Assembly: GCF_900637185.1 (NCBI RefSeq)
Contig: NZ_LR134352.1
Span: forward strand, 5,012,001-5,076,000
DNA length: 64,000 nucleotides
Reading direction: 5' to 3'
Origin: Nocardia asteroides
GTDB lineage: Bacteria > Actinomycetota > Actinomycetes > Mycobacteriales > Mycobacteriaceae
Shown: piece by piece, positions 1,317 through 34,222 of the stretch
Position numbering within the stretch: the first letter of the stretch is position 1
Layout: each line of letters begins with the position of its first letter
Made by a program: the position numbers and the translations under genes
The notes under the pieces: model-generated
What the model saw: only the letters and a program-made list of their open reading frames with translations
Databases searched by the model: none
Told to the model about the DNA's origin: nothing

Positions 1317-1892
1317 ATGACCACCTCGCACACCATGTTCGAACCGATCCTCCGCGAGCTAGCCGGATCGGAGTTCACCAAGACCCTCCTTGCAACGTTC
1401 AGGCAGCTGGAGTGGGCCGAGGAGGAGATCCAGCGAGCCCAAACCCGCCACCCTGATGTCGCTGACGTGTTGCACCACAGCTTTTCGCTGTTGAGCGCGA
1501 CCGAAGATCGGATGTCCACCGAGTTCGTCTACCGGGCGCATGCCCGGGAGCTGCTCGAGCGGGTCGCGACCGGTGTGTCGACAAAGCCGGGGACCTCGGT
1601 CGAGGTCGTGTTGTCGCTGATGCGCGCGAGCTTGGTGACTCCGTTGAACACCACCGCGTTCGGCCTGTACGTGCGGATGTGGCGTCAGGCCGGACTGCCC
1701 ACCGTCGATGGTCTGGGCGGGGATCTGGGCGAGCACCACGAAGCCATCAACGCTAGCCGGATCGATGAGTTCGAGGCGATCGCCCGGCGCCAGCTCGCCC
1801 AGCCCTCCCGTGTGCTGACGCTGGTTTCCTGCGAGGGCCGCCATCTCGGCGAACCGGTCGACTGCCGCCTGGCAACTGCGCGCGCCGCCTGA
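1317..1892 (+). CDS. Conserved hypothetical protein of actinobacterial elements
   Basis: This encodes 191 aa from ATG, preceded by AGGGAGA. It is mostly alpha-helical and soluble, with no signal peptide, membrane segment or Cys cluster. It lies in the same orientation as, and about 95 bp upstream of, the first amidoligase gene, separated from it by a hairpin. It may be the first gene of a loose transcription unit running to 7.3 kb. I do not recognise a family. Confidence 0.65.
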   Translation: MTTSHTMFEPILRELAGSEFTKTLLATFRQLEWAEEEIQRAQTRHPDVADVLHHSFSLLSATEDRMSTEFVYRAHARELLERVATGVSTKPGTSVEVVLSLMRASLVTPLNTTAFGLYVRMWRQAGLPTVDGLGGDLGEHHEAINASRIDEFEAIARRQLAQPSRVLTLVSCEGRHLGEPVDCRLATARAA

Positions 1893-1987: not shown

Positions 1988-3211
1988 GTGCCCGATCTCG
2001 ATCTGCCCGATCCGTGCGGGGTCTGCCGATCCCGCGAACCCGGTGTACGTGTCCCGGTCGACGCCGGGATCGTCTGCCACGCATGCGCCCGAACCTGCGC
2101 CCAGTGTTACCGCTGCGGCGTGCGTTCGCTCGCCCTCACCGACACCGCCGCCGGGCGGCGCCTGTGTTCGGACTGTGCGACCGGATTGAACGCGTGCGTG
2201 TCGTGTGCGGAGGTGACCTTCACCGGTCTGCGCACCGACACCGGCGGTTTCGTCTGCGGGATCTGCGCGCACCAGTTGTTCGATCAGTGCTTCCGGTGCG
2301 AACGGTTCACCCGCCACAGCCGCTACGTCGTCGGCAACCACCGCACCTGCCCTACGTGCGCTCAGGAGCTGTGCGCGTGTCCGGACTGCGGCACGTTGCT
2401 GGCGGGGCGGCGCGGGTGTGATCGGTGCGCTGACCGGCACACGTTGTGGAACTACACCTACCGTCCCGACCCGATCTTCCACGGCACCGGCCCGTTGTTC
2501 CTCGGGCTGGAACTGGAAGTCGTTGTACCCGAAGACTGTTTCGACGATGCGATCGCGACCGCCACCGACACACTCGGATCGCTCGGCTATCTCAAACGTG
2601 ATTCCTCGATCCGCCCCATGGGTTTCGAGATCGTGTGCCACCCGATGACCTACCAGTACGCCCTCACCGAATTCCCGTGGCAGGTCCTGCACCAGCTCGC
2701 CCGGTTGGGCTGTGAGACCGGTGCCGGTGTTGGTTTGCACGTGCACGCCTCTAGGGCAGGGTTCACCGGGCCCGCACACATTTTCCGGTGGATGAAGCTG
2801 GTCTACCGCAACTCCGACCAGGTCTCGCGGTTGGCGCGACGCACCAGCCGCTACGCCCCGTTCGAGCCCGACACTCGCTCGCGTGCCAAAGACCTGGCCA
2901 AAGGCGCCCGCCACGCGGTCGGGTTGCCCCGGTACCAGGCGATCAACCCCCACCCCCGCGACACCCTCGAGCTGCGGGTCTTCGCCAGCGCGCTCGACCC
3001 CGGCCAGGTGCAGGCGGCGTTGGCGTTCACCGAGGCCTCCATCGCCTACACCGCCGACCTCACCGTCGCCCAGATCCACGCAGGCGGCTGGGACTGGGAC
3101 CAGTTCACCGACTGGCTGTCGCGCCGCCTCGAATACGCGCCCTTGGTGGTCGAACTGGCCCACCTTGCCGACCTGATCGATGAACAGGAGGGCGTGCTGT
3201 GTGCCTCTTGA
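1988..3211 (+). CDS. Zinc-ribbon amidoligase (Amidoligase_2-type), copy 1
   Basis: This encodes 407 aa from GTG, preceded by GGAAGGGG. Residues 1-160 are very Cys-rich, with repeated CxxC pairs (for example CGVC, CHAC, CYRC, CFRC, CPDC) that predict tandem zinc ribbons. From about 165 comes a glutamine-synthetase-fold amidoligase domain: GLELEV with E175 and E177, a GLHVH motif with H251 and H253, and LELRVF around E328-R330. This family (PF12224 type) is predicted to form amide or peptide bonds from ATP, an acid and an amine. The next gene overlaps its end by 13 bases and supplies a class II glutaminase, the expected ammonia source. The substrate is unknown. Confidence is high in the family, low in the reaction. 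Confidence 0.85.
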   Translation: MPDLDLPDPCGVCRSREPGVRVPVDAGIVCHACARTCAQCYRCGVRSLALTDTAAGRRLCSDCATGLNACVSCAEVTFTGLRTDTGGFVCGICAHQLFDQCFRCERFTRHSRYVVGNHRTCPTCAQELCACPDCGTLLAGRRGCDRCADRHTLWNYTYRPDPIFHGTGPLFLGLELEVVVPEDCFDDAIATATDTLGSLGYLKRDSSIRPMGFEIVCHPMTYQYALTEFPWQVLHQLARLGCETGAGVGLHVHASRAGFTGPAHIFRWMKLVYRNSDQVSRLARRTSRYAPFEPDTRSRAKDLAKGARHAVGLPRYQAINPHPRDTLELRVFASALDPGQVQAALAFTEASIAYTADLTVAQIHAGGWDWDQFTDWLSRRLEYAPLVVELAHLADLIDEQEGVLCAS

Positions 3212-3990
3212 CCTTCATCCCCGCCTCCGTCGCACCGGACCCGACCGCGTTGCGGCATGGCGCCGAGGCGAATCCGCACGGGCATGGGTTCGCTGTTATC
3301 GCCGGCCCCGTGATTGTGACCGGGCACGGCATGAACGCCGAGGAAGTGATCGACCTGTTCGCCCGGGTTCGTGCCCAGCATCCGCGGGGTCCGGCGTTGT
3401 TTCATTCCCGCTACGCAACCCACGGCATCCGCACCGTCGACAACTGTCACCCCTTCCGCCTCGGTGGTGACAAACGAACCGTGTTGGCGCACAACGGTGT
3501 CCTGCCCAAACGTGTGCATCCGGGCCCGTATGACTGGCGATCGGACACCCGCATCGCCGCCGAGGACTACCTCCCACGCCAGCCGTTCGGGTCGATCGAC
3601 ACCCACAAGGGGTTTCGGGGACTCGAGTCCTGGCTGGGGTCATCCAAGTTGCTGATCCTCACTGTCGACCCCGCCTTCGACCAGCAGGTGTATCTGCTCA
3701 ACGAGTCGAAAGGCTTGTGGGACAGCGGGATCTGGTACTCCAACCGCAGCTACCTGCCCTGGTCGCAGCGGTACGCCACGCAACGCCGATTGGCATGCCG
3801 TAGCTGTGAGACCGTCGACGAGAACCGGGTCAGCCGCTACTGCACCACGTGCGGGTGGTGCTTCGCCTGCGAGAACCGGTTCCCGCACTGCGAATGCCGC
3901 CGACCGCGCACCCGCAGCCCGCGCCACCGCGCTCTCAACCGACCCCTGCCGTTGTCGGCGGTGAAACCACCGACCGCCCCGAGTCCCTGA
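3199..3990 (+). CDS. Class II glutamine amidotransferase-like protein, copy 1
   Basis: This encodes 263 aa. The GTG start is followed directly by Cys (MCLLTF), which becomes the N-terminal nucleophile of an Ntn-type glutaminase after Met removal. AGGAGGG fits this start. Family landmarks follow: HSRYATHG, DNCHPF, LAHNGVLP and SDTRIAAEDY. The last ~60 residues carry a CRSC...CTTC...CFAC...CEC zinc-binding region that is not part of the usual glutaminase. The coding overlap with the amidoligase (stop inside the fourth codon) predicts translational coupling and a complex in which glutamine-derived ammonia feeds the ligase. Confidence 0.85.
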   Translation: MCLLTFIPASVAPDPTALRHGAEANPHGHGFAVIAGPVIVTGHGMNAEEVIDLFARVRAQHPRGPALFHSRYATHGIRTVDNCHPFRLGGDKRTVLAHNGVLPKRVHPGPYDWRSDTRIAAEDYLPRQPFGSIDTHKGFRGLESWLGSSKLLILTVDPAFDQQVYLLNESKGLWDSGIWYSNRSYLPWSQRYATQRRLACRSCETVDENRVSRYCTTCGWCFACENRFPHCECRRPRTRSPRHRALNRPLPLSAVKPPTAPSP

Positions 3991-4031
3991 CGCGTCGGTC
4001 GCACCGCAAGTCACCAACGCTTTTCCCCTGA

Positions 4032-4052
4032 GCCTGCACCCGTCGTGCGGGC
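4032..4052 (+). promoter_or_regulatory. Leader hairpin before second amidoligase
   Basis: An 8-bp stem (GCCTGCAC with GTGCGGGC, one G-T pair) with a CCGTC loop is followed by TTTCGTCGTTTCC and then the ribosome binding site of the gene at 4080. Position and downstream motif match the hairpin at 1934-1960. Confidence 0.45.
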
Positions 4053-4079
4053 TTTCGTCGTTTCCAGGGAAGGAATTCC

Positions 4080-5330
4080 ATGCCCACCGCTGTCCTGGTC
4101 GTCCTCGCCGAATGCGATGCCTGTTCAGCCCGACACCCTGCCGCGGACTTGGTCGAGACGGCCGAGAACCAACAACTCTGCTCGGACTGTGTCGCTGGCC
4201 TCGACCTGTGTGAGAGGTGTGATTTCCCCGCCCGCGATACCGCACTGACCACTGCGGACGACTACTGGTGTGCTGGTTGCCGAGCCCCCTGCACCGTGTG
4301 TGAGGACTGCGAGCGCTACGCGCCCTACGTCGTGGCGGTCCTCTCCGGCGGTGACGTGTGCGAATCGTGTGCCGAGTCCTACACCGCCTGCGACGACTGC
4401 GATCTGCGCACCGCCGACTCCTACACCGTCGACGGTGATCGGGCGGTGTGCGAGGACTGCCGCGACGACTACACCCGATGCCACAGGTGCCGCACCCTCG
4501 TCCGGGGACGTGAGTACTACTGCGACGACTGCGCCCGGCCCGACGATTCCCGTGTCCACGACTCCGACTACAGCCCGCGCCCGGTCTTTCACGGGCACGG
4601 GCCGCTGTTTCTGGGCATGGAACTCGAACTCCGCACCACCGTGCACGGCTATGAGGACTCGGTCGCGACCGCGAACAACCACCTCGACGGGGTCGGCTAC
4701 CTCAAATACGACGGGTCGATCAGTTGCGGGTTCGAACTGGTCACCCACCCGATGAGTTTCGACTACGCGATGAGCGAGTTCCCCTGGGCGCTGTTGACGC
4801 GGCTGCGGTTGCTGGGTTGTCACACCGATGACGAGGTCGGCATCCACGTGCATGTGTCGCGGGCCGGGTTCGACTCCCCTGCCCATATCTACCGGTGGCT
4901 CAAACTCGTCTACCGCAACGAAACCCACGTCACCGCGCTGGCGCGGCGCCGCGACTCGCAATGGGCCAGCTTCGACCCCGACACCCGCGACATGGCCAAA
5001 CACCTCGCCCACGGCGGACACGGGTGGGGCCGCTATCACGCCATCAACGCCCGACCCGCCCACACCTTCGAGCTGCGGGTCTTCGCCAGCTCGCTCGATC
5101 GCCGCGAGGTGCAAGCCGCGCTCGGTTTCGCCCATGCCTCCGTCGAATACACCCGCGCCCTGCGCGCCCACGACGTCGTCGCCGGCCAGGGCTGGGACTG
5201 GGCCACCTTCACCAGCTGGGTGGCAGCGCGACCGGAATACGCCGCTTTGACCGCTGAACTCGCCGCGCTGGCACCGGCCTCAATCGGTGTGCCCAGCCGG
5301 AACCTGGAGGACTTCGCATGTGCATCTTGA
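4080..5330 (+). CDS. Zinc-ribbon amidoligase (Amidoligase_2-type), copy 2
   Basis: This encodes 416 aa from ATG, preceded by AGGGAAGG. It is a full-length homologue of the gene at 1988: a Cys-rich N-terminus with many CxxC pairs (CDAC, CERC, CEDC, CDDC, CHRC), then the amidoligase core with GMELEL (E181, E183), GIHVHVS (H256, H258) and FELRVF (E331). All core motifs are kept in both copies although the zinc-ribbon parts differ, which suggests that both are active with different partners or substrates. Its stop lies inside the fourth codon of the next gene, the same overlap as in copy 1. Confidence 0.85.
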   Translation: MPTAVLVVLAECDACSARHPAADLVETAENQQLCSDCVAGLDLCERCDFPARDTALTTADDYWCAGCRAPCTVCEDCERYAPYVVAVLSGGDVCESCAESYTACDDCDLRTADSYTVDGDRAVCEDCRDDYTRCHRCRTLVRGREYYCDDCARPDDSRVHDSDYSPRPVFHGHGPLFLGMELELRTTVHGYEDSVATANNHLDGVGYLKYDGSISCGFELVTHPMSFDYAMSEFPWALLTRLRLLGCHTDDEVGIHVHVSRAGFDSPAHIYRWLKLVYRNETHVTALARRRDSQWASFDPDTRDMAKHLAHGGHGWGRYHAINARPAHTFELRVFASSLDRREVQAALGFAHASVEYTRALRAHDVVAGQGWDWATFTSWVAARPEYAALTAELAALAPASIGVPSRNLEDFACAS

Positions 5331-6076
5331 CCGTCATCAAACCCGGCATCGCCCCCGATTTCCATGCTCTCGCCGCCGGTGCGGTCGCGAACCCGCACGG
5401 GCACGGGTGGGCTGTGCACGCCGGGGACCGGCTCATCGTCGGCCACGGCATGGACCCAGAGACCACCATCACCGAATTCGCCCACGCCCGAGCATCATTC
5501 CCGGACGGGCCGGCGTTGTTTCATTCCCGCTTCGCCACCCACGGTGACCACACCACCGCCAACTGTCACCCCTTCGCCATCGGCGGGGACAAGCGAAGCG
5601 TGCTGGCCCACAACGGGATCCTGCCCGAGCACGTCCACCCCCTCACCGGTGACGACCGTTCCGATACCCGGATCGCGGCCGAGGACTTCTTGCCGCAGAA
5701 CCCGTTCGGGTCATTGGATTCCTGGGCCGGACGGGAACGGTTCGAACTCTGGTTGGGTACCGACAAGGCCGCCATCCTCACCGTCGACCCCGCCTACAAA
5801 CATCCCGCCTACATCTTCAACGAACACCGCGGGCACTGGCGCGACGGGTCGTGGTACTCAAATCACAACTACGAGCTGGGCCGATACCCGGCCGGTGCCT
5901 TCGTCGACTACGAGTTCTGTGACAACTGCGGGGCAGAGTACGACAACCCCGACGGCCCGCACTGCCCGTACTGCGGCTTCTGCGAAGCGTGCCTGAATCC
6001 CTACCCGCGCTGCCGCTGCACCTGCCCCGATGAGGCCGACCGCTACTCCGACCTCCTGGCACTCGAAACCGCCTGA
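5318..6076 (+). CDS. Class II glutamine amidotransferase-like protein, copy 2
   Basis: This encodes 252 aa from ATG followed by TGC (MCILTV), giving the N-terminal Cys nucleophile. GGAGG lies upstream. It shares with copy 1 the motifs HSRFATHG, NCHPF, LAHNGILP and SDTRIAAEDF, and it ends in a similar zinc-binding tail (CDNC...CPYC...CEAC...CRC). It forms the second half of a duplicated amidoligase-glutaminase module. Role as in copy 1: predicted supply of ammonia from glutamine to the paired ligase. Confidence 0.85.
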   Translation: MCILTVIKPGIAPDFHALAAGAVANPHGHGWAVHAGDRLIVGHGMDPETTITEFAHARASFPDGPALFHSRFATHGDHTTANCHPFAIGGDKRSVLAHNGILPEHVHPLTGDDRSDTRIAAEDFLPQNPFGSLDSWAGRERFELWLGTDKAAILTVDPAYKHPAYIFNEHRGHWRDGSWYSNHNYELGRYPAGAFVDYEFCDNCGAEYDNPDGPHCPYCGFCEACLNPYPRCRCTCPDEADRYSDLLALETA

Positions 6077-6128: not shown

Positions 6129-6461
6129 ATGACCTATCCGCTGACCGTACCGCCCTTGCGCCACAGGGTGCGCGCCGCCCTGAACCAGTTGCGTGGCGTC
6201 AGCCCTGTCGCTGACCCGGTGACCGGTTCGACCGAATCGACGATGGTGGTGGCCGCACTCCACGAGGCCCGCCACAACAACCTGACCGTCACCGTCCGCA
6301 CCCGCGGCGGGCACTTGCATTTTCGGATGACCGTGGACACTGTCGGCGCCCGCCACGCCAACCTGACCACTGATGCCGGTGAGCAGGTGATCGTGCCGTT
6401 GCGGTTCATCGAGACTGTGCAGTACCTGGCACCCAGCAACGGTGACCAGGGGCTGCTGTGA
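6129..6461 (+). CDS. Hypothetical protein downstream of amidoligase modules
   Basis: This encodes 110 aa. The ATG at 6129 (MTYPLTVPPL) is chosen because TTGGAGAGGA precedes it; the frame is open further upstream without a plausible start. It is a small, probably beta-rich soluble protein. The next gene starts inside its stop codon region (GTGA overlap). The tight chain 6129-6461, 6458-6937, 6934-7269 suggests one operon co-expressed with the amidoligase pairs. No family recognised. Confidence 0.6.
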   Translation: MTYPLTVPPLRHRVRAALNQLRGVSPVADPVTGSTESTMVVAALHEARHNNLTVTVRTRGGHLHFRMTVDTVGARHANLTTDAGEQVIVPLRFIETVQYLAPSNGDQGLL

Positions 6462-6937
6462 ACACCACCGTGGTCGGGGCGGCTGAGCCGTCGCGCTGGA
6501 CCGCCCGCCTGCACCCCATCCCCCGGCCCGCGCGTGAGGTGTTGGTCATCGGCTGGCACGCCGCATTCGCCGACACCCCCGCTGCGGGAACCCCGATCGC
6601 GGTGTTCCCCCACACCGAGATCATCGCCGATCACTTGCCGGTGATGGCGTTGGTGCGCATCGAACACGCCACCGCGATCGACACCATCACAGCTGACGGC
6701 ACACGCGAAACCCGCTGGGGTGCCGACCCGTTCGGTATCGCGAAGACCGGGATCAGTTGGCGGCTGGTGCCCGCACACCTCGCCGAGGACCGGTGGGTGA
6801 TCGCGCCCGGGTGGTGGGCCGCCGGCGGCGAGGAAGCCGTGCTGCCGACCTCGATCACCTCACACGCCCTCGGCGCACCCACCGTGGTGCCCGTCTACGA
6901 CCACGACCCACACACCGGGAAACGCTGGACATCGTGA
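6458..6937 (+). CDS. Hypothetical protein, GTGA-coupled
   Basis: This encodes 159 aa from GTG; the start overlaps the previous stop as GTGA, so translation is probably coupled. It has Trp-rich patches (WRLVPAHLAEDRWVIAPGWWAAGGEE) with no signal peptide or membrane segment. The end overlaps the next start in the same way. Family not recognised; context suggests an accessory role to the upstream enzyme pairs. Confidence 0.6.
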   Translation: MNTTVVGAAEPSRWTARLHPIPRPAREVLVIGWHAAFADTPAAGTPIAVFPHTEIIADHLPVMALVRIEHATAIDTITADGTRETRWGADPFGIAKTGISWRLVPAHLAEDRWVIAPGWWAAGGEEAVLPTSITSHALGAPTVVPVYDHDPHTGKRWTS

Positions 6938-7761: not shown

Positions 7762-9003
7762 ATGAACCGCTACTGCGGGATCGACTGGGCCGAGGGCCAT
7801 CACGACATCGCCATCGTCGATCAAGACGGTGCTCTGGTTTCGAAGAAGCGGATCGGAGACGACCCGGCAGGCTTTGCCGCACTTACCGAAATGTTGACCG
7901 CAGCGGGCGACACCGCGGAGGAACCGATCCCCGTCGCGATTGAGACCACCCGCGGTTTGATGGTCGCTGCGCTGCGAGCCACCGGCAGACCCGTCTATGC
8001 GATCAACCCCATGGCAGTGGCACGCTACCGCGAACGGCACACGCTGGCCCGTACCAAGTCTGATCACGCCGACGCGATGACGTTGGCAAACATCCTTCGC
8101 GTCGACGCACATGTCCATCGCACGATGCCGGCCGACAGCGAGCTCGCTCAAGCCATCGCAGTCCTGGCCCGCGCGCAACAGGACGCGGTATGGCGACGCA
8201 CCAAAGCAAGCAATGAACTGCGTTCGCTACTGCGCGAGTTCTACCCGGTATTCCTGGCGACGTTCGCGGACCGGTCCTCAACAAACCTCGCCAAACCAGA
8301 GGTCCGCGCGGTGCTAGCGATCGCGCCGACACCGACATCCGCCGCAAAGCTCACCAAAACTCGCGTCGCGGCTGCACTGCGTCGCGCGGGGCGCAAACGC
8401 GGCATCGACGAACGGGCTGCTGAGATCGTCAAGCAGCTGCGTCGTCCCGGCCTTCGCCAACCAACACCCGTCGAAACCGCGATGGGCCGCCACGTGCTTG
8501 TCCTCCTCGCGGCTCTGAACGCCGCTTGCGTCGGTGCAGACGAGCTGGAAGAGGCTGCAGCCGAAGAGTTCCGCAAGCACCCCGACCACGCGATCATCAC
8601 CAGCTTTCCCGGCCTCGCCGATCTTGCCGGCGCCCGCGTTCTTGCCGAGATCGGCGACGACCGCAACCGGTTCGCCACCGCTCGGTCGCTGAAGGCCTAC
8701 GCCGGATCGGCTCCTGTCACCAGAGCCTCTGGGCGTTCGATCTCAATTACCCACCGCCGCATCAAGAACGATCGTCTTGCTGCTACCGGTTGGGTGTGGG
8801 CCTTCGCAGCAGCGATCAATAGGGGCCCGGCCCGCGAGCACTACCTTCGTCGGAGGGCACACGGAGACAGGCACAGTGCAGCGTTGCGACATCTGTTCAA
8901 CAAGATGCTCGGCCAGTTGCACTACTGCCTCCGCACAGATCAAACCTTCGATCCTGTCAAGGCGTTCCCCGGCCCGAAGGTTCGGGAGCCCCTAGCGGCC
9001 TGA
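7762..9003 (+). mobile_element. IS110-family transposase (DEDD recombinase)
   Basis: This encodes 413 aa. The ATG at 7762 is chosen because GGGAGGA precedes it. The N-terminal RuvC-like DEDD catalytic set is visible as D8 (YCGIDWA), E61 (AIETTRG), D101 and D104 (KSDHADA). The C-terminal Transposase_20-type part has AGSAPVTRASGRS with the likely catalytic Ser at 323. Length and order fit an intact IS110-group enzyme, so the element may be active. It has inserted between the hypothetical trio and the defence-like gene at 9087. IS110 members do not need terminal inverted repeats, and none were sought as proof. Confidence 0.9.
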
Positions 9004-9086: not shown

Positions 9087-11879
9087 CTAGTTGCTATGCA
9101 GTCGCTTCATGGCTGTTGCACGAACAGAGATCGACGGATGCTGGGTGAGTTCTTCGAGGATTCCGGTAAATACCGAGTTATCGGTTTGGGTGTTGCGAAG
9201 TACAGCGGCGACTGCGAGTTCACCGCCGGTGGCGACTGCGGTCGTCAGGATTGGCCCATAGATCGACCACAGTTCAGGATCCGTGACGAGGCGGCGGGTT
9301 ATGCCGGTGATCGCGCGCTCGCGTACGTCCTGGTCATGGTCGGCAAGTAATGTGACCAGAAGGTTCTCATATCCGTTAACACGTGCGCAGGCATCAGCAG
9401 CGTCGGCTCGGTGCAACTTGGTGCCGCTGAGCATGCGAGCAAGCGCTGTGGCCGCACCCGATGACGCGGCCGGGTATGTGTGGAACAGCAACTCGAGTGC
9501 TGCGCCGCCGAGCGGTCCCTCTAGCGGGTCCGCCGTATCGCGGGCACCGTTCGATACGTCTACGATGGTCTCGGCGACGTCACGGATCTTGCCTTGTGTA
9601 CCGGCATCAAGGTCTGCGAATTCTTCTGACAGAATCTTGAGTGCGTGGCGTTTGCGCGATCCCAGCACTTGCGGGCTTCTCAGAAACGACAGCAAATAGT
9701 CCAGGTCAGCGGATCCCTCGAAGGTAGTGACTAGTCTTGCGTACCAGGCGGGGTAGTCATGGATGTAGCCGGAGAAGCTCCCGCGTCGGGTCTCGGTTTC
9801 GATGTCCGCCAGCTTTTGCCGGCATCGGTCGCCGATCGCGGTGGCTTCATCGAGTTGTATGGCGCTGAGTGGTATCTCTGCCGCGGCAGAGATATCTCCT
9901 TGCAGGAGCGCGTTGCGGAAGAGGGCTTCGGTGGTCGAGTTCCGTCCACAGGTTCCAGCGAGCACCCACTGAACCCGGTTGTTGTCGTCGTTGATTTCCA
10001 CTGCCCGCCCGCCCAACGCTGTGCGCTGCGCAGAGGTGAGGCGAAGGACCCTGAGAAGCCGGTCGACCGCTGGCGCGATTACCTCTGCGTGTTGCGCCGG
10101 TAGGGTCGCAATGTGGTGCACGATCGCCTCGACATGGTCGTCGTCAGCGAAATCGACAAGTCCTGCGATCGCGTGGAGCCTTGCGGTCGGAAAACCGCCG
10201 TCGGTACTGACCTTGTTGACCAGCGACCCTCCGGGCTGTAGCGAGGCGATCAGCTCGCCAAGCCAAGTACTGGCAATGTCAGGAGGGAAATAGGGGCCCA
10301 GCTGACTCACCAGGGTCAGGTCGGCTCGGGAGGAGGTTCTAGTCATCGTGTCAGGCGTGACGTCGCGAACTAGTCGTGGCAGCACTGCGGCGGGCCCGTG
10401 ACGCTTGACTTTGCGCACGGTGTTTTGCAGGTCCTTGTGTCGGCCGGATCGGCGGAGCAAGTCAATCGATTCGACGAGTCGCTCATCACTGGTACGCCCG
10501 GTGGACAAGTCTGCTTTCGCAAGTGTTCCTGCAGCAGCGTTCCATTCGGCCGAGAGTCCTGACAGGCGGGCGATCAGTCCGGCAGAGTACAGATCGTTGT
10601 GCACGGTGTCGGCTTCGAAGATCTGAACCGCTGGATCCTGGCTCCACTGTTTGAAGACGCGGTCGAGCGCGCGCGACAGACCGGTGGACATGGGGTAGCG
10701 GCGCCACCAAGAGGCGGTGGTATCGAGGGCGGTGACGACGTCCGTCATGCTCTGGTCGGTTCGATCGGTGCGGTCCGTGAGGGTGAACAGCAGCCAGATT
10801 GCGGCGGAACGGAGCGCCTCGACTGCAACGTCGTCGCGTGGCCCGGTGCCGAGATGGATATTGGCGGAGTTGACCGCCTCAATCGCGCCTGCGTGATCAC
10901 CGATTTCAGCCAGGAGGCGGGCCTGGTGGATGTCAAGCCATCCTTTGTCACTGTTCGAGAGGGTTTCACTGTGCTGGCTGGTGAGTGCAGCCACTGCGTC
11001 AGAGATACGGCTCTGATCTTCCAGTGCCAGGGCAAGGCACACCGCGGCTGCGGACCTGAGATGCGGCGGTGTGGATTCTGCGGTAAGGAGCGTCTGCAGT
11101 GGCTCATGGATGCCACCGGTGAGCCACGAATAGATCGCGGCCGCCAGGCGCCAGCCGTGATCATTGTGGGCGTGAGCGTCCTCAGGGGACGGGACATCAG
11201 GGTGCTTGCCGGTGAAGTGACTCCATCGCTCGGGTGTGCCTTCGATGATGACCGAAATGGCTTCGGGCCAGGAAAACGCGACGTCGGTTCCCCGGCTGGG
11301 ATGTGGGCTGACGATGCGGGGCACAAGCAGGCAGTATCGGGCCCGCTGGTCGGCGGGCAGATGTGAGGCGTTGAACCGCCAGCGTGCACCTTCGTGGGTC
11401 ATGCGTCGTCGGGATCGCATAACCCAGTTGATCCATTGGTCGCGATGGTCCTTGGTGAGGCGTTGGTCATCGGGAACAAAGACTTTGATGCCGACCCCGG
11501 TGGATTGGATGTGTTCGGTGTCGAGGTAGGCCCATACTGCGGTTGTGGTGTCGTCGCTGATCAGGATGACGATGTGTGGCACATGGTGGTCGGTCCAGTA
11601 CTCGCCGTGGTGGTCGGCGCCTTCGGTAAACCACCAGCCGCGGCGACCGTCAACGTGGCCTGGTCGGCTAAAGAACGAGTCGCCATGTTTAGCTTGAACC
11701 CCCAGCATAAGACCAAGGTCAGTGAGATCGTGTCCGCGCATCTGTACGAACAGGTCGGTACCGACGTCGTGCCTCCCTGTCGGTACAGGGCCCCACCCGA
11801 GTTGGTTGAAGAATAACGTGCAGAAGCTCTCACCTATCTCGCCCAACTGGACCGTCTTCGGCTGACGCGGTTTGCTCAC
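9087..11879 (-). CDS. DUF4365-like nuclease domain fused to large helical-repeat region
   Basis: This encodes 930 aa from GTG. Residues 10-125 resemble a DUF4365 / PD-(D/E)xK restriction-like fold: E14/E17 in LGEIGESF, D42 in HDVGTDLFV, and Q62-x-K64 in LGVQAKHG give the likely metal-binding and catalytic set. The remaining ~750 residues are soluble helices with TPR- or HEAT-like periodicity and could form a sensor scaffold. No ATPase motif was seen. Being a single large gene beside an IS in a mobile element, it is a candidate anti-phage effector; this is inference. An AT-rich CACAAT lies just upstream of the GTG, so the mRNA may be leaderless. Confidence 0.75.
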   Translation of the reverse strand: MSKPRQPKTVQLGEIGESFCTLFFNQLGWGPVPTGRHDVGTDLFVQMRGHDLTDLGLMLGVQAKHGDSFFSRPGHVDGRRGWWFTEGADHHGEYWTDHHVPHIVILISDDTTTAVWAYLDTEHIQSTGVGIKVFVPDDQRLTKDHRDQWINWVMRSRRRMTHEGARWRFNASHLPADQRARYCLLVPRIVSPHPSRGTDVAFSWPEAISVIIEGTPERWSHFTGKHPDVPSPEDAHAHNDHGWRLAAAIYSWLTGGIHEPLQTLLTAESTPPHLRSAAAVCLALALEDQSRISDAVAALTSQHSETLSNSDKGWLDIHQARLLAEIGDHAGAIEAVNSANIHLGTGPRDDVAVEALRSAAIWLLFTLTDRTDRTDQSMTDVVTALDTTASWWRRYPMSTGLSRALDRVFKQWSQDPAVQIFEADTVHNDLYSAGLIARLSGLSAEWNAAAGTLAKADLSTGRTSDERLVESIDLLRRSGRHKDLQNTVRKVKRHGPAAVLPRLVRDVTPDTMTRTSSRADLTLVSQLGPYFPPDIASTWLGELIASLQPGGSLVNKVSTDGGFPTARLHAIAGLVDFADDDHVEAIVHHIATLPAQHAEVIAPAVDRLLRVLRLTSAQRTALGGRAVEINDDNNRVQWVLAGTCGRNSTTEALFRNALLQGDISAAAEIPLSAIQLDEATAIGDRCRQKLADIETETRRGSFSGYIHDYPAWYARLVTTFEGSADLDYLLSFLRSPQVLGSRKRHALKILSEEFADLDAGTQGKIRDVAETIVDVSNGARDTADPLEGPLGGAALELLFHTYPAASSGAATALARMLSGTKLHRADAADACARVNGYENLLVTLLADHDQDVRERAITGITRRLVTDPELWSIYGPILTTAVATGGELAVAAVLRNTQTDNSVFTGILEELTQHPSISVRATAMKRLHSN

Positions 11880-12312: not shown

Positions 12313-12936
12313 TTGCGAGTATCGGAGGTCTACATCACCCTCGCCCACCGCGACCGGACCCGCCCGGTGTGGGGAAACATCGACCCCCACCGCCTCGCAG
12401 AGGTCCTGCACCACAAACGATGCCAGGTCTGCGGGGAAGACCTCTACGACACCCTCGTGCTGATGATCCGCCCGTCGGACTATCTGCGTGGCGTAGCAGT
12501 CGAACCTGGTTTGCACCCCGAGTGTGGCTGGTATAGCCGCCGGGCTTGCGTGATGCTGGCCGGGCACGTCGACCGCTACAACCCCGTCGGCAACACCCCA
12601 CTCAACCTGTGCGGCGACCCGCTATGTCGCTGTCGGTACTGGGCGCCCGCCGAGACCACCACTCCGGGCCGGGAGGGTAAACCGGCTGAGGCCTGGTACG
12701 AGGCCTGGATCCGGCGCGAGGACTACGACGTGTTCACGGTCCCGGCCGACGAGTCCGGGCCCGAAGCCACCGGCATCGCGCTACGTGGGGTGCCGTTCCT
12801 ACGGTTGCGTAAGGTCCGCGACCCGGCACCGAACACTGAGGATTCCCAGCCGATGGACTTGCTCGCCGCGGTCATCGCCGCCCGCACGCTCTGGGAAACC
12901 CTCGACCTCACCGAAGATCCCGACGCTCCCCGATAG
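12313..12936 (+). CDS. Cys/His-motif hypothetical protein, start uncertain
   Basis: This encodes up to 207 aa. The only in-frame start near the conserved N-terminus is TTG at 12313, which has no ribosome binding site before it; the native start may have been lost to rearrangement. Residues 35-80 hold CQVCGED...HPECGW...RRAC, then CGDPLCRCR around 100-107, suggesting zinc binding. It is acidic and soluble. I do not recognise a named family. It precedes the DnaA-box cluster and the DprA-like gene. Confidence 0.6.
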   Translation: MRVSEVYITLAHRDRTRPVWGNIDPHRLAEVLHHKRCQVCGEDLYDTLVLMIRPSDYLRGVAVEPGLHPECGWYSRRACVMLAGHVDRYNPVGNTPLNLCGDPLCRCRYWAPAETTTPGREGKPAEAWYEAWIRREDYDVFTVPADESGPEATGIALRGVPFLRLRKVRDPAPNTEDSQPMDLLAAVIAARTLWETLDLTEDPDAPR

Positions 12937-13025
12937 CGGGTCGCCCCGGCGCGTTCCCGCATGCCGCGTTTCCTCGCCGCCAGCCCCATACGCGTATCTG
13001 TGCCGGGCAGTGACCGGCGCTCACC

Positions 13026-13137: not shown

Positions 13138-14015
13138 GTGGACCTGACCATTTCCGCCGCATTCGCCCAGCAGTTGGCATGGGCGATCCTGGCCCGCGCC
13201 GCCCTCTACTTTCGCGGTGCGGTCGCTATCCTGCTCGCCGCTCAGGGCCCCGACGGGGCCGCCGACATCCTCGCCCGCGCCATTCCCGGCTTAGCGGTGC
13301 GCGCCGAAGCCGACCTCGCCGACGCCGACCGCATCGGTGCCCGGCTGATCATCCCCGAGGACCCCGAGTGGCTCGCCGGCTCACCGAGTTCGAGGACCCC
13401 GGCACCAACCGGTTCGGTCCGGTCGCGTTGTGGGCTCGCGGTGCCGGACCCCTCGACACCCTCGCGCACCGCGGCGTGGCCGTGGTCGGGGCGCGGGCGT
13501 GCACCGAGCACGGATACACCGCCACCCGCGACCTCGCCGAGACGGCCGCCGGGCAGGGGTGGACGATCGTGACCGGCGGCGCCTACGGCATCGACACCGC
13601 CGCCGTCGAAGGCGCGCTCGCCGTGGACGGTTCGGCTGTCGTGGTCACTGCCGGCGGGCTGCGCCACGCCTACCCCGCCACCAACGGTGACATATTCGAA
13701 CAGATCACCCGACGGGGACTGCTGGTGTCGGAGTATCCGCCGTCCGACCGGCCCACCCGTGACCGGTTCCTGCACCGCAACCGGATCGTCGCCGCCCTCG
13801 GCGCCGGGATGGTGGTGCCCGAGGCCGGGATCCGCAGCGGCACCCTCAACGCCGTCGACTGGGCAAACCGGCTCAACCGGCCCGTGTCCGCGCTGCCCAC
13901 CCCGACACCGACCGCTCCCGCGTGGGCCGGGTGCGCGGCCATGGTCGACAACGGCCACGCGCAGCTGGCCACCGACACCGGCCAGCTGCTGGCCGCTCTC
14001 GCGACCGCGGGCTGA
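13138..14015 (+). pseudogene. DprA/Smf-like DNA-processing protein, frameshifted
   Basis: The N-terminal part starts at GTG 13138 (after GAGAGGA) and reads VDLTISAAFAQQLAW to EDPEWLAGS. The rest continues in another frame from about 13380 (LTEFEDPGTNRFGP), consistent with loss of one base near 13378-13381. The second part carries the DprA Rossmann core: VAVVGARACTEHG, IVTGGAYGIDTAAVEGAL, and a GIRSGTLNAVDWA loop, ending at 14015. DprA binds single-stranded DNA and loads RecA; plasmid-borne homologues are common in actinobacteria. It is either a true pseudogene or one sequencing error; all other parts look intact. Confidence 0.8.
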
Positions 14016-27713: not shown

Positions 27714-29519
27714 TTGCCCACCAGCACGATCGAACCCGTCGACCCGGTCGAACTCGACCAGCCCACCGCCGAAACCGCAGACACCGCAACCGGTGTGGTG
27801 AACGACGGAGACAAAGGAGCGCCCGTCCCGCCCCGCGCCGAGGCCCGGTACATGGATCCAGCCGAGTTGGTGATCGGGCACAACGTGCGCCCCGAGGATC
27901 AGATCGACCTCGAGGCCCACGCCAAGGAAGTCGCCTCGATCCGGCTGTTCGGGGTCCGTGACCCGATCCTGGCCGAACGCGGCCCCGACGGGCAGATCGT
28001 CGTGGTCGACGGCCAAGTGCGTGCCCTGATCGCCCGAACCCTGGGCCTGCAGGTCCCGGTCTACATCCAGCACACCGATCGGGCTATCACCGACCCGGAA
28101 CGGTTGATCGACCGCGCGCTGACCCAGATCAACCTCAACGATCGGCGCATCGAGCTCACCGACTCCGCCCGCGCGGCCGGGGTCGCTTACATGCTCGACC
28201 TCGGCGCCACCGCCTCCCGCGTCGCCGAAGGGTTGCAGACCAGCACTATCAGGGTGCGCAAGGCCGGCAAGATCGGCCGATCCACGGCGGCTCGCGCGTT
28301 GCTCGACGAACACCAGTACAGCCTCGACCAGCTCCAGGTCATCGCCGACTACGAAGCCCTCGACGACCACGACGCGATCGAACAACTCACCAACGGCGGC
28401 CGCGGCAACTTCGACCTGCGCGCCAGACGCGTCGCCGGCGACCGTGCCGAAGCGCGTCAGCGCCTGGCCGCGGCCCTGCACTACGCTGCGGCCGGGTTCG
28501 CGATCGCGACCACCGATCCCGCCTACCTCGACCACGACCTGTTCGTTCCCGCCGAGGACCTCGTCACCATCGACCAGACCCCGGTACCCGAGTCCGAGAT
28601 CTGGGCCAACTCAGCGCGGTGGCTGGTCGCGCTCGAGCGGATCGAGGACGCCGAACTCGTCGACGAGACCACCGGGGAGGTGATCGATCCCGACACCGTC
28701 GACTTCGACGCCGACCCCGACACACCGCCCGCGGAGGGTCTGCGCACAACCGACGGTTTGATCCATCGGGACCTCTGGCTGGCGTCCTACTTCCTGGCCG
28801 CCGACCAGCTCGAGCCCGCCGGCCTCCTGCGGCGCACCGCCAACATCGACCCCGCCGCTGACCCGGACCTCGCCACCGACAACAGCGTCGACGTGGCCGA
28901 GACAAGCGCGCGGGCCGCGCAGGAACGGGCCGCCGCCCAGGCTCGGCGTGAGGAGCGGCGCAGGGTGATCGAGCTCAACAAGCGCGGCGCTGCGGCCAAG
29001 GGTCGCCGGATCGAGTTCCTGGCCCGGTTGATGTCGGGTCGGACCTTGCCCGCCGGTGCGGCACAGTTCGTCGCCGAATCGCTGGCGCGTGACTCCGCGC
29101 TGCTGTCCGGATCACGAGCGCGTGCGTTCGCGATGCAACAGCTCGGACTCGACTCGAACGCCGAGGTGATCGAACGTGCCAGCGGCGGGACCACCACCGA
29201 GGGGTGGCGGTTCGTGCTCGGGTTGGTGCTGGCCGCCCACGAATCAGCGCTCGGCAAGGACTCCTGGCGCCAGCACCGGTGGCTGGGCGCCAACACGGCC
29301 CACTACCTGCACTACCTGGCCCAGGTCGGCGAAGCGAAGGGGTTCGCGCTGGTCGATGTCGAACTCGCCACCGCCGGCGACCTCGATCCCGACGCCATCG
29401 ACCTCGAACCCGGTCCCGGCACCGTCGCCGACACCTCGCCCGGAAACCTCACCGAGGAAACAGACAAGGCGACCGACGAAACCGAGACCGCGCCGACGCA
29501 ACTCGTAACCGCGGCCTAA
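27714..29519 (+). CDS. ParB-like nuclease/partition domain protein
   Basis: This encodes 601 aa from TTG at 27714, chosen because AAGAGGAG precedes it; the frame upstream is random. Residues 45-170 match the ParB/RepB N-terminal domain: ELVIGHNVRPE, VASIRLFGVRDPILAERG, VVDGQVRALIARTLGLQVPV. A helix-turn-helix-like part follows (TDSARAAGVAYMLDLGATAS, RVAEGLQTSTIRVRKAGKI). The long C-terminal part (250-570) is helical and acidic with no known domain. No parA lies next to it, so this could be an orphan ParB acting in partition or regulation of the element. Confidence 0.8.
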   Translation: MPTSTIEPVDPVELDQPTAETADTATGVVNDGDKGAPVPPRAEARYMDPAELVIGHNVRPEDQIDLEAHAKEVASIRLFGVRDPILAERGPDGQIVVVDGQVRALIARTLGLQVPVYIQHTDRAITDPERLIDRALTQINLNDRRIELTDSARAAGVAYMLDLGATASRVAEGLQTSTIRVRKAGKIGRSTAARALLDEHQYSLDQLQVIADYEALDDHDAIEQLTNGGRGNFDLRARRVAGDRAEARQRLAAALHYAAAGFAIATTDPAYLDHDLFVPAEDLVTIDQTPVPESEIWANSARWLVALERIEDAELVDETTGEVIDPDTVDFDADPDTPPAEGLRTTDGLIHRDLWLASYFLAADQLEPAGLLRRTANIDPAADPDLATDNSVDVAETSARAAQERAAAQARREERRRVIELNKRGAAAKGRRIEFLARLMSGRTLPAGAAQFVAESLARDSALLSGSRARAFAMQQLGLDSNAEVIERASGGTTTEGWRFVLGLVLAAHESALGKDSWRQHRWLGANTAHYLHYLAQVGEAKGFALVDVELATAGDLDPDAIDLEPGPGTVADTSPGNLTEETDKATDETETAPTQLVTAA

Positions 29520-29661: not shown

Positions 29662-30771
29662 GTGGATGCCGATTGCCAGGGGGGATCGCGCTTGTTCGCT
29701 CATCGTGCCGGGAGCGGCGATGCCGCCTGTGTGCGCGTCGACGACGCCGGGCAGTTGATCGCGGCGGTCCCGGCGATACTGCGATTCATCCCCACCCGGT
29801 CGCTGGTCGTGGCGCTGGTGTCGGCCGCCGCCGACTCCGCCGCGTCCGCGCGGGCAATTCCTGTGGTAGTCCGGGTCGACCTCGACGCGGTCACCGACCC
29901 TGCCCGCGCGCAGGAGCCACTGGAGTTGCTGGACACGGTCTTTCGGCGTGAGAACGCTACCGCAACATTCGCGATCGTCGTCGATGACCGACCCCACGCC
30001 ACGGCGACCGCGCACCTGGTCGTGGCCCTGCTGCAGTCGATGGCGGTGAACCTGGCACACGCCTGGCTGGTCCCCACGATCAGCGCCGGCGCGACCTACC
30101 GCGGCCTACTCGACGGTGACAGCGACGGCACTGTGAACGACCCCGCCACCTCACCGCTGGCCCTGGCCCTGGCTCTCGACGGTGTCGCGATCCACCACAG
30201 CCGCAGCCAGTTGCGTGATCTCATCGCGGTCGACCCGCAGGCGAGCGCAGCACTGTCACCACTCATCGCTACGGCCGTCGAGCACTACCGCGGCGAACGC
30301 GCCGACGCGGCCACCGCCGATCACGGCGCCACCTTTCACCGTGACACCGCCTGCGCGGTACTTGAGCGCATCTCGGCCGTCGCTGAATCCGGCTGCACCC
30401 CCGAGGGTCTGGCCACGGTCGTGGCGGCGCTGCGTGATGTGGTGATCCGTGACGTCATGCTCGCGTTGACCGGCACCAGCTGGGCGGCGGACGCGCAGAT
30501 CCTGTGGCAGTCGGTGGCGCGGGCGAGCACCGGCCGGGATCGGGCTGAGGCCGCGATGCTGTGTGGCTACGACGCCTACCACCGCGGCGACGGCGTCTAC
30601 GCACGAATCTGTCTGGAAGCGGCCTTGCAGGCAGACTCCGAACACTCGATAGCTGTGCTGCTCAAGGCGGCGCTCGACGGCGGCGAACCTCCCGCGAGAA
30701 TCGCGATGATCGCGGACGCCGGACGCGACATCGCGACCGGTCTCAGAATCGACCTCACCACGACGACCTGA
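29662..30771 (+). CDS. DUF4192 domain protein
   Basis: This encodes 369 aa from GTG, preceded by AGAAGGAG. It has the DUF4192 pattern: DAGQLIAAVPAILRFIPTRS near the N-terminus, a central VVVRVDLDAV strand, and a C-terminal AAMLCGYDAYHRGDGVYARI segment with helical repeats. DUF4192 proteins are common in Actinobacteria and often plasmid- or ICE-linked; function unknown. Same strand as the ParB-like gene. Confidence 0.85.
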   Translation: MDADCQGGSRLFAHRAGSGDAACVRVDDAGQLIAAVPAILRFIPTRSLVVALVSAAADSAASARAIPVVVRVDLDAVTDPARAQEPLELLDTVFRRENATATFAIVVDDRPHATATAHLVVALLQSMAVNLAHAWLVPTISAGATYRGLLDGDSDGTVNDPATSPLALALALDGVAIHHSRSQLRDLIAVDPQASAALSPLIATAVEHYRGERADAATADHGATFHRDTACAVLERISAVAESGCTPEGLATVVAALRDVVIRDVMLALTGTSWAADAQILWQSVARASTGRDRAEAAMLCGYDAYHRGDGVYARICLEAALQADSEHSIAVLLKAALDGGEPPARIAMIADAGRDIATGLRIDLTTTT

Positions 30772-33658: not shown

Positions 33659-34222
33659 ATGCCCGGCGAACCGACACTGCCCTTGGTGGGCAACTTGGCC
33701 TCCGATATCGAGCTCTCTTTCACTCCTGCCGGTGTCGCGGTGGCGCATTTCACCGTCGCCTCCACACCGCGGGTCTTCGACCGTACCACCGGGCAGTGGC
33801 GCGACGGTGACCCGTTGTTCCTGCGCTGCAACCTGTGGCGAGAGCCAGCCGAGAACGCAGCGGAGTCGCTGTCGAAAGGCGCGCGGATCATGGTGATGGG
33901 CAGGCTCAAACAGCGTAGCTACCAAACCCGCGACGGCGACAAGCGCACCGTCTACGAGGTCGAGGTCGACGAACTCGGCCCCAGCTTGCGTTTCGCCACG
34001 GCCAAAGTCACCCGCACCAGCCGAACCGGTAGCAGTGGCGGTGGGTTCGCCCAGCCCGACACCGCGACCCGCACCACCCGCGCGAACAACATACCCGCGC
34101 CGGCGAGCTCGGGCAGCGATTCGTGGCCCGGTGACACCGAGGTAACCGCCAGCGGAGGTGAGCCGTGGGAGACGCCGGTACTGGCTGGGGCCGGTGCAGG
34201 TTTCGGCGAGCCGCCGTTCTGA
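33659..34222 (+). CDS. ssb: Single-stranded DNA-binding protein
   Basis: This encodes 187 aa from ATG after a CAGAAAGG ribosome binding site. The OB-fold is recognisable: [68 protein letters not shown] flexible Gly/Ser/Thr tail ends in GFGEPPF, a variant of the acidic DDDIPF-type tip that binds partner proteins. The sequence starts with [11 protein letters not shown], typical of actinobacterial plasmid SSBs rather than the chromosomal copy. It supports replication or transfer of the element. Confidence 0.9.

Follow-up and report, generated by a model that had tools for sequence, protein, structure and literature searches.

A 64,000-nucleotide stretch of Nocardia asteroides DNA (contig NZ_LR134352.1, positions 5,012,001 to 5,076,000; hereafter the window) carries two adjacent copies of a unit in which a ligase gene (LIG) is followed by a glutaminase gene (GAT), giving the double cassette LIG1-GAT1-LIG2-GAT2. 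Each pair may be a two-protein glutamine-dependent amidotransferase that acts early on a component of the host, a reading to which we assign a probability of roughly 0.5. The gene pair is of a known kind, already named in phage annotations, and its doubling in Nocardia looks like a single old event after which both copies were kept. The literature searched holds no experimental work on the function of the pair and no description of the Nocardia double cassette, of the zinc arrays or of the relaxase-linked setting, in agreement with a preliminary description of the window, made from its sequence alone, which took the duplicated zinc-ribbon form to be uncharacterised.

Active sites and predicted chemistry of the pair

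Relatives were analysed among the best 80 of 281 viral and the best 80 of 87 bacterial ligases (68 loci), the 80 viral ligases comprising 74 distinct ones. In the window, the four open reading frames (ORFs) and the 13-nt overlap within each pair were confirmed (Table 1). LIG2 passes the PF12224 cut-off of 22 bits and GAT2 the PF13230 cut-off of 23 bits, as expected for the proposed amidoligase and class II glutaminase. Copy 1 falls just short: LIG1 by 0.9 bits, and GAT1 with 20.1 bits against PF13230 and 19.4 bits against PF13522 (cut-off 27). The two ligases are 44% and the two glutaminases 52% identical, and by homology to LIG2 the core of LIG1 is a predicted amidoligase of glutamine-synthetase fold. 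A PF12224 search of the source genome found one place, LIG2, and a search with LIG2 as the query found both ligases. Strong matches link the ligases to PHROG 22302 and the glutaminases to PHROG 25883 (E 5.1e-50 for GAT1), both families of unknown function. The four genes are under purifying selection, with dN/dS values of 0.09-0.27 against three relatives.

Structure models of copy 2 gave the fold and the N-terminal Cys pocket that had been anticipated. Modelled LIG2 folds like glutamine synthetase and has acidic, His and Arg residues in its active site, and modelled GAT2 has an Ntn fold with glutamine-binding motifs; the LIG2 fold-search alignments span residues 172-408 and so barely cover the N-terminal zinc array. 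Residue conservation was scored where a locus had exactly two strong matches to each of LIG and GAT, in 36 loci plus the window, which makes 37 tandem loci and 74 sequences per family. Thirteen of the 14 ligase positions checked are invariant, and D211 is altered once (L134, copy 2). In the glutaminases C2, R71, T74, N82, H98, N99 and D116 are invariant and G100 is altered once (L144, copy 1); Cys2 is also kept in all 59 alignment rows. All four window genes retain their active-site motifs, as first described, but beyond the window this does not extend to glutaminase H75, which is kept in 37/37 second copies and in only 17/37 first copies, the window's included, with R, K or Q in the other 20. 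H75 aligns with a His of GlmS that we take to contact glutamine. Its loss from first copies alone hints that the first pair may handle glutamine differently.

From these features, a class II glutaminase with Cys2 as its nucleophile would free ammonia from glutamine, and the glutamine-synthetase-fold ligase would use ATP to activate a carboxylate and hand it to the ammonia, yielding a primary amide. We regard such ammonia-transfer amidation as likely, and the carboxylate amidation put forward in the preliminary description is supported as a prediction. The ligase zinc array and the 8-Cys tail of the glutaminase could join the subunits, dock a macromolecular target, or both.

The main rival to this chemistry is a writer-eraser couple, in which an amine or an amino acid, added by the ligase in a gamma-glutamyl-type amide linkage, would be taken off again by the class II Ntn protein. 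It owes this rank to EgtC, which is among the close fold matches of the GAT2 model and fits the GAT fold nearly as well, a point that weighs against ammonia transfer. Precedents exist in EgtA/EgtC of ergothioneine synthesis and PafA/Dop, which act on Pup; EgtA/EgtC, like the window pairs, join a glutamine-synthetase-fold ligase to a class II Ntn hydrolase, although EgtC removes a gamma-glutamyl group, zinc arrays are not known there, and no ergothioneine gene was recognised among the scanned neighbours. We nevertheless consider a writer-eraser couple unlikely. The glutaminases retain most of the residues by which GlmS holds glutamine. A cyclotransferase-like motif near the pair, by motif search only, was absent from 79/80 viral and 68/68 bacterial loci and from the window, so that the cyclotransferase companion of LUZ24/phiEco32-type phages has a counterpart in only 1/148 loci.

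In the N-terminal part of LIG1, residues 10 to 147 include 11 CxxC motifs, an apparent array of zinc modules. Seven or eight CxxC motifs occur in 51/61 viral ligases and ten in 67/106 bacterial ligases; such arrays are general across the ligase family and not peculiar to the window. Zinc modules are present as described, but in the ligase they may resemble LIM domains more than the plain ribbons first named: the N-terminus weakly matches PINCH1 LIM4-5 (Foldseek E 0.0067) and, by sequence, an FHL1 LIM domain (E 0.014), and the CxxC motifs are regularly spaced at 20 plus 10 residues.

Duplication of the cassette in Nocardia

Of the 68 loci obtained by scanning genome contigs, 51 belong to Nocardia. 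The order LIG-GAT-LIG-GAT was found in 40 of the 51, in plain form in 35, with an extra ligase in three (L126, L127, L133) and with three sets in two (L162, L165). The double form, at first seen as an oddity of one mobile element, is thus common in Nocardia, and the pair is widespread in phages. Eleven Nocardia loci (L130, L137, L146, L150, L151, L153, L161, L174, L176, L183, L191) lack a full double set, many of them at a contig end; the L146 and L153 contigs bear a lone ligase of the extra type. The N. neocaledoniensis group has this third ligase, without a glutaminase, 3' of its double cassette (L126 15056-16240, L127 9493-10815, L133 11239-12510). Decayed copies also occur: in a second cassette place of genome G271 LIG2 is truncated, and the locus in G133 has degenerated.

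In other actinomycetes, the 13 loci whose genes are of ordinary size have a single LIG-GAT pair each, L182 with one more ligase. Four Pseudonocardia loci (L186, L187, L190, L192) were omitted from the pair counts because their ligases lie within stop-free frames of 11-22 kb. Each of these loci has one or two amidoligase cores and none matches a glutaminase; the frames resemble genes for giant multidomain proteins, and by eye the one in L186 includes a trypsin-like part.

Trees were computed in quick mode with SH-aLRT support only. First-position Nocardia ligases fall in one 47-row clade (support 100) with the second-position ligases outside it, and one branch (support 98) splits 39 first-position from 37 second-position glutaminases. 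Sequences from one position share 67-69% identity on average, those from different positions 56-57%. These position-specific clades and the higher identity within positions suggest one old duplication with both copies retained. A recent tandem duplication or an assembly artefact was ruled out by the low identity of the window copies and by the separate tree group of each position.

Across the 37 tandem loci, some positions are fixed differently in the two copies, and two of these adjoin active-site residues (LIG 255 and LIG 330). The old duplication would thus have left two pairs that probably treat two substrates or two sites.

The 13-nt overlaps of the two window pairs, GTGTGCCTCTTGA and ATGTGCATCTTGA, had been singled out as an odd mark of the duplicated unit. 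The same overlap occurs in 95 of 100 measured bacterial pairs, which also rules it out as a sign of recent origin. It arises because the typical glutaminase start, ATG/GTG-TGC-NTC-(T/C)TG-A, ends in the stop codon TGA when the frame of the ligase is followed. The arrangement would be inherited and may favour translational coupling. Selenocysteine or read-through at a TGA in relatives was ruled out, as the ORFs stop at the normal ligase stop. In viral pairs a 13-nt overlap was found in 5/74 (L045-L049, the five loci that match the bacterial ligases best); the commonest length was 32 nt (21 pairs).

The 100 measured pairs derive from 113 bacterial ligases. The 13 without a pair comprise two first copies removed by a distance filter although their GAT ORFs are present (L140, L175), three ligases at contig ends (L137, L174, L191), seven extra or lone ones (L126, L127, L133, L146, L153, L182, L183) and a decayed one (L176). 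Two of the five bacterial overlaps of other lengths (322 and 637 nt) are probably wrong start choices in the scripted measurement.

Distribution in phages and plasmids

A LIG2 relative is encoded by 281 viral contig stretches, by 24/50,697 phage records, of which 19 are Mycobacterium phages, and by 5/72,556 plasmid records. The pairing is very regular: in 76 of the best 80 viral loci the ORF right after the ligase is a GAT, and in the other four (L056, L077, L096, L098) the contig stops 0-62 nt past the ligase. No ORF in the 148 loci matches both profiles as a LIG-GAT fusion would. Farther from the window the pairing breaks down; of nine annotated phage or plasmid loci, seven have both genes, a Clostridioides phage (L008) has the ligase only and a Bifidobacterium phage (L005) the glutaminase only. 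One viral locus among the 80, L058, has a double set. A gamma-glutamylcyclotransferase-like motif was observed near this cassette (L058 3802-4245).

The closest named relatives are gp105 (amidoligase) and gp106 (glutamine amidotransferase) of phage Marvin and its kin, which belong to the same two families in the same order; over the aligned part, identity in the 19 Mycobacterium phage records is 36-39% for the ligase and 39-41% for the glutaminase. Marvin differs in its single pair, in the 79 nt between its annotated genes and in having fewer N-terminal zinc modules. The OM43 (Methylophilales) phages MEP401 and MEP402 also encode an amidoligase and a glutamine amidotransferase (PMC10580990), but at about 23-27% identity, as one pair and with a longer N-terminal part that has few CxxC motifs. 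In MEP402, as in the window, the genes are adjacent and the catalytic residues are kept; the pair lies just before primase, helicase and polymerase genes. The available text on the LUZ24-like phage UFV-P2 (PMC3890496) places a PF12224 ligase and a class II glutamine amidotransferase in one early cluster, a pair as here, but with an HNH gene between them and with ATP-grasp, COOH-NH2 ligase and AIG2/gamma-glutamylcyclotransferase genes present.

The pair is therefore common to phages and transferable elements, with an early-gene-like position in some. It lies near replication genes in MEP402 and near RNA polymerase in ctgrD200. The MEP402 replication enzymes, used as landmarks, had no match in the 80 viral loci and so gave no indication of an early position in those phages. 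L122 is a phage, with terminase, portal and DnaB-like helicase genes near the pair; a WhiB-like regulator gene 3' of its glutaminase (12660-13001) points to an actinobacterial host. One portal match was obtained for L046, and none for the single protein of L058 that was scanned.

Element context and possible purpose

The neighbours of the cassette (Table 1) were counted over 65 loci, the window included, with genes called by a simple codon-usage script. The counts are lower bounds, as flanks did not exceed 10 kb and many were truncated where the contig stopped.

Table 1. Features of the double cassette and its surroundings; positions refer to the window except for the integrase.
Feature	Position	Strand	Description
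Integrase	G000 5008597-5009868		just upstream of the window
Upstream neighbour	1317-1892	+	191 aa; no Pfam or PHROG match; family 9, 22/65 loci
LIG1	1988-3211	+	GTG start, 407 aa; PF12224 21.1 bits; PHROG 22302 E 1.4e-30
LIG1/GAT1 overlap	3199-3211	+	13 nt
GAT1	3199-3990	+	263 aa; class II glutamine amidotransferase, N-terminal Cys2; C-terminal 8-Cys zinc tail
Spacer between pairs	3991-4079	+	GC-rich hairpin, then TTTCGTCG
LIG2	4080-5330	+	416 aa; zinc array and amidoligase core; PF12224 30.4 bits
LIG2/GAT2 overlap	5318-5330	+	13 nt
GAT2	5318-6076	+	252 aa; class II glutaminase and zinc tail; PF13230 25.7 bits
Two small neighbours	6129-6937	+	110 and 159 aa; no Pfam match; families 8 and 4, 23/65 and 29/65 loci
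IS110-type transposase gene	7762-9003		between cassette and rest of element
207-aa zinc-binding-like protein	12313-12936	+	no Pfam, NCBIfam or PHROG match; commonest neighbour, 46/65 loci
DprA-like protein	13368-14015	+	PF02481 175 bits; 27/65 loci; PADLOC ShosA model also matches
ParB-like protein	27714-29519	+	PHROG 6218 E 7.8e-49; no Pfam match; 26/65 loci
DUF4192 protein	29662-30771	+	PF13830 192.9 bits; 30/65 loci
Single-stranded DNA-binding protein (SSB)	33659-34222	+	PF00436 91.4 bits; 19/65 loci

The SSB, ParB-like, DprA-like, DUF4192 and 207-aa families lie mainly downstream of the cassette on the same strand, and all 46 members of the 207-aa family keep C37, C40, C71 and C79. In the family search 8/301 genomes, every one from the genus of the window, carried the cassette. 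In six of these eight a TrwC relaxase gene lies 3' of the cassette, on the same strand and contig, at 8.3, 11.5, 12.5, 14.3, 17.7 and 22.8 kb past LIG2, and TrwC was found in 3 of 20 other listed genomes of the genus (Fisher p 0.005). None was found near the second G271 place, and G133, where the cassette is at a contig end, has no TrwC match. The positions of the SSB, ParB-like and relaxase genes would fit the leading (establishment) region of a conjugative element. Plasmid leading regions carry SSBs and anti-defence genes, some of phage-related families, according to the available text of PMC11541004, the main text of which does not mention amidoligases.

The mobile-element setting proposed for the window finds support in the integrase and a DUF2637/excisionase-like gene just upstream. 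With the IS110-type transposase gene and no TrwC match in the window's genome, the window copy is best read as a mobile-element remnant with its cassette still intact. A 930-aa DUF4365 protein with a PADLOC Aga_REase match (E 5.3e-8) is encoded between the cassette and its usual neighbours (9087-11879, minus strand). None of the four cassette proteins matched a PADLOC defence model at E 0.01. Hairpins in the spacer between pairs reach z < -2 in 26/35 Nocardia spacers with varying stem sequences, the window's own only -1.7; a second GC-rich hairpin precedes LIG1 (1891-1987). These hairpins ahead of LIG1 and LIG2 are possible terminators, attenuators or single-strand promoters.

In such a setting, phages and conjugative elements would express the pair early, from a place close to SSB, ParB-like and DprA-like genes, and a host component would be altered during establishment, as counter-defence or takeover. 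We give this early, host-directed purpose about an even chance. A more specific version, which we hold only tentatively and think rather unlikely as a whole, is a shared early protein-amidation weapon: a glutamine-fed ligase guided by its LIM-like zinc array would amidate a host protein of defence or replication, at its acidic side chains or at a carboxylate tag, and disable it during entry, the Nocardia version being two-headed with two specificities.

A role in cell-wall amidation, in which a peptidoglycan or surface carboxylate would be amidated and superinfection blocked, is less well supported for this branch and seems quite improbable. Amidated peptidoglycan is known in actinobacteria, and MurT-GatD is alike in principle, although its components are a Mur ligase and a glutaminase of class I, neither related to those of the pair. 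Ligase relatives occur, however, on phages of hosts as unlike as Mycobacterium, Methylophilales and Clostridioides, the recognised neighbours act on DNA and not on the wall, and LIM-like arrays are typically modules that bind proteins inside cells. As far as the available texts go, MurT-GatD is encoded by two co-transcribed genes and amidates a carboxylate in peptidoglycan (PMC3267633), and a wall role for phage phiEco32 is attributed to Iyer et al. 2009 (PMC10580990, PMC11318856).

The same neighbours bear on two further proposals, both very unlikely. The available part of PMC10580990 reports that secondary-metabolite synthesis had been suggested for phage Marvin, and the pair could make an amide metabolite, with zinc arrays that are merely structural. 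The several zinc modules in each ligase argue against this, and no biosynthetic gene was recognised among the scanned conserved neighbours, although YbdK-like and GmaS-like ligases do act on small molecules. Still a shade less probable is nucleic-acid hypermodification, by which a carboxylated base or nucleotide precursor would be amidated so that entering DNA evades restriction. The replication, RNA polymerase, SSB and ParB-like neighbours would suit it, and QueC-fused class II glutaminases work in phage DNA modification. But among the conserved companions none was seen that could supply a carboxylated base, and no base-modification enzyme was recognised in the tested neighbours, save that the ParB-like protein marginally matches a DNA methyltransferase profile (E 0.0098).

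Amidoligases occur often in phages and are unexplained there, and the available literature repeats a computational prediction of 2009. One large branch of these enzymes has a very regular class II glutaminase partner and possibly LIM-like zinc arrays, and occurs in both phages and conjugative elements, in some at early-gene-like positions. This regular partner and shared distribution make a concrete test of the role of the pair possible, and the Nocardia double cassette would offer an internal comparison of two specificities.

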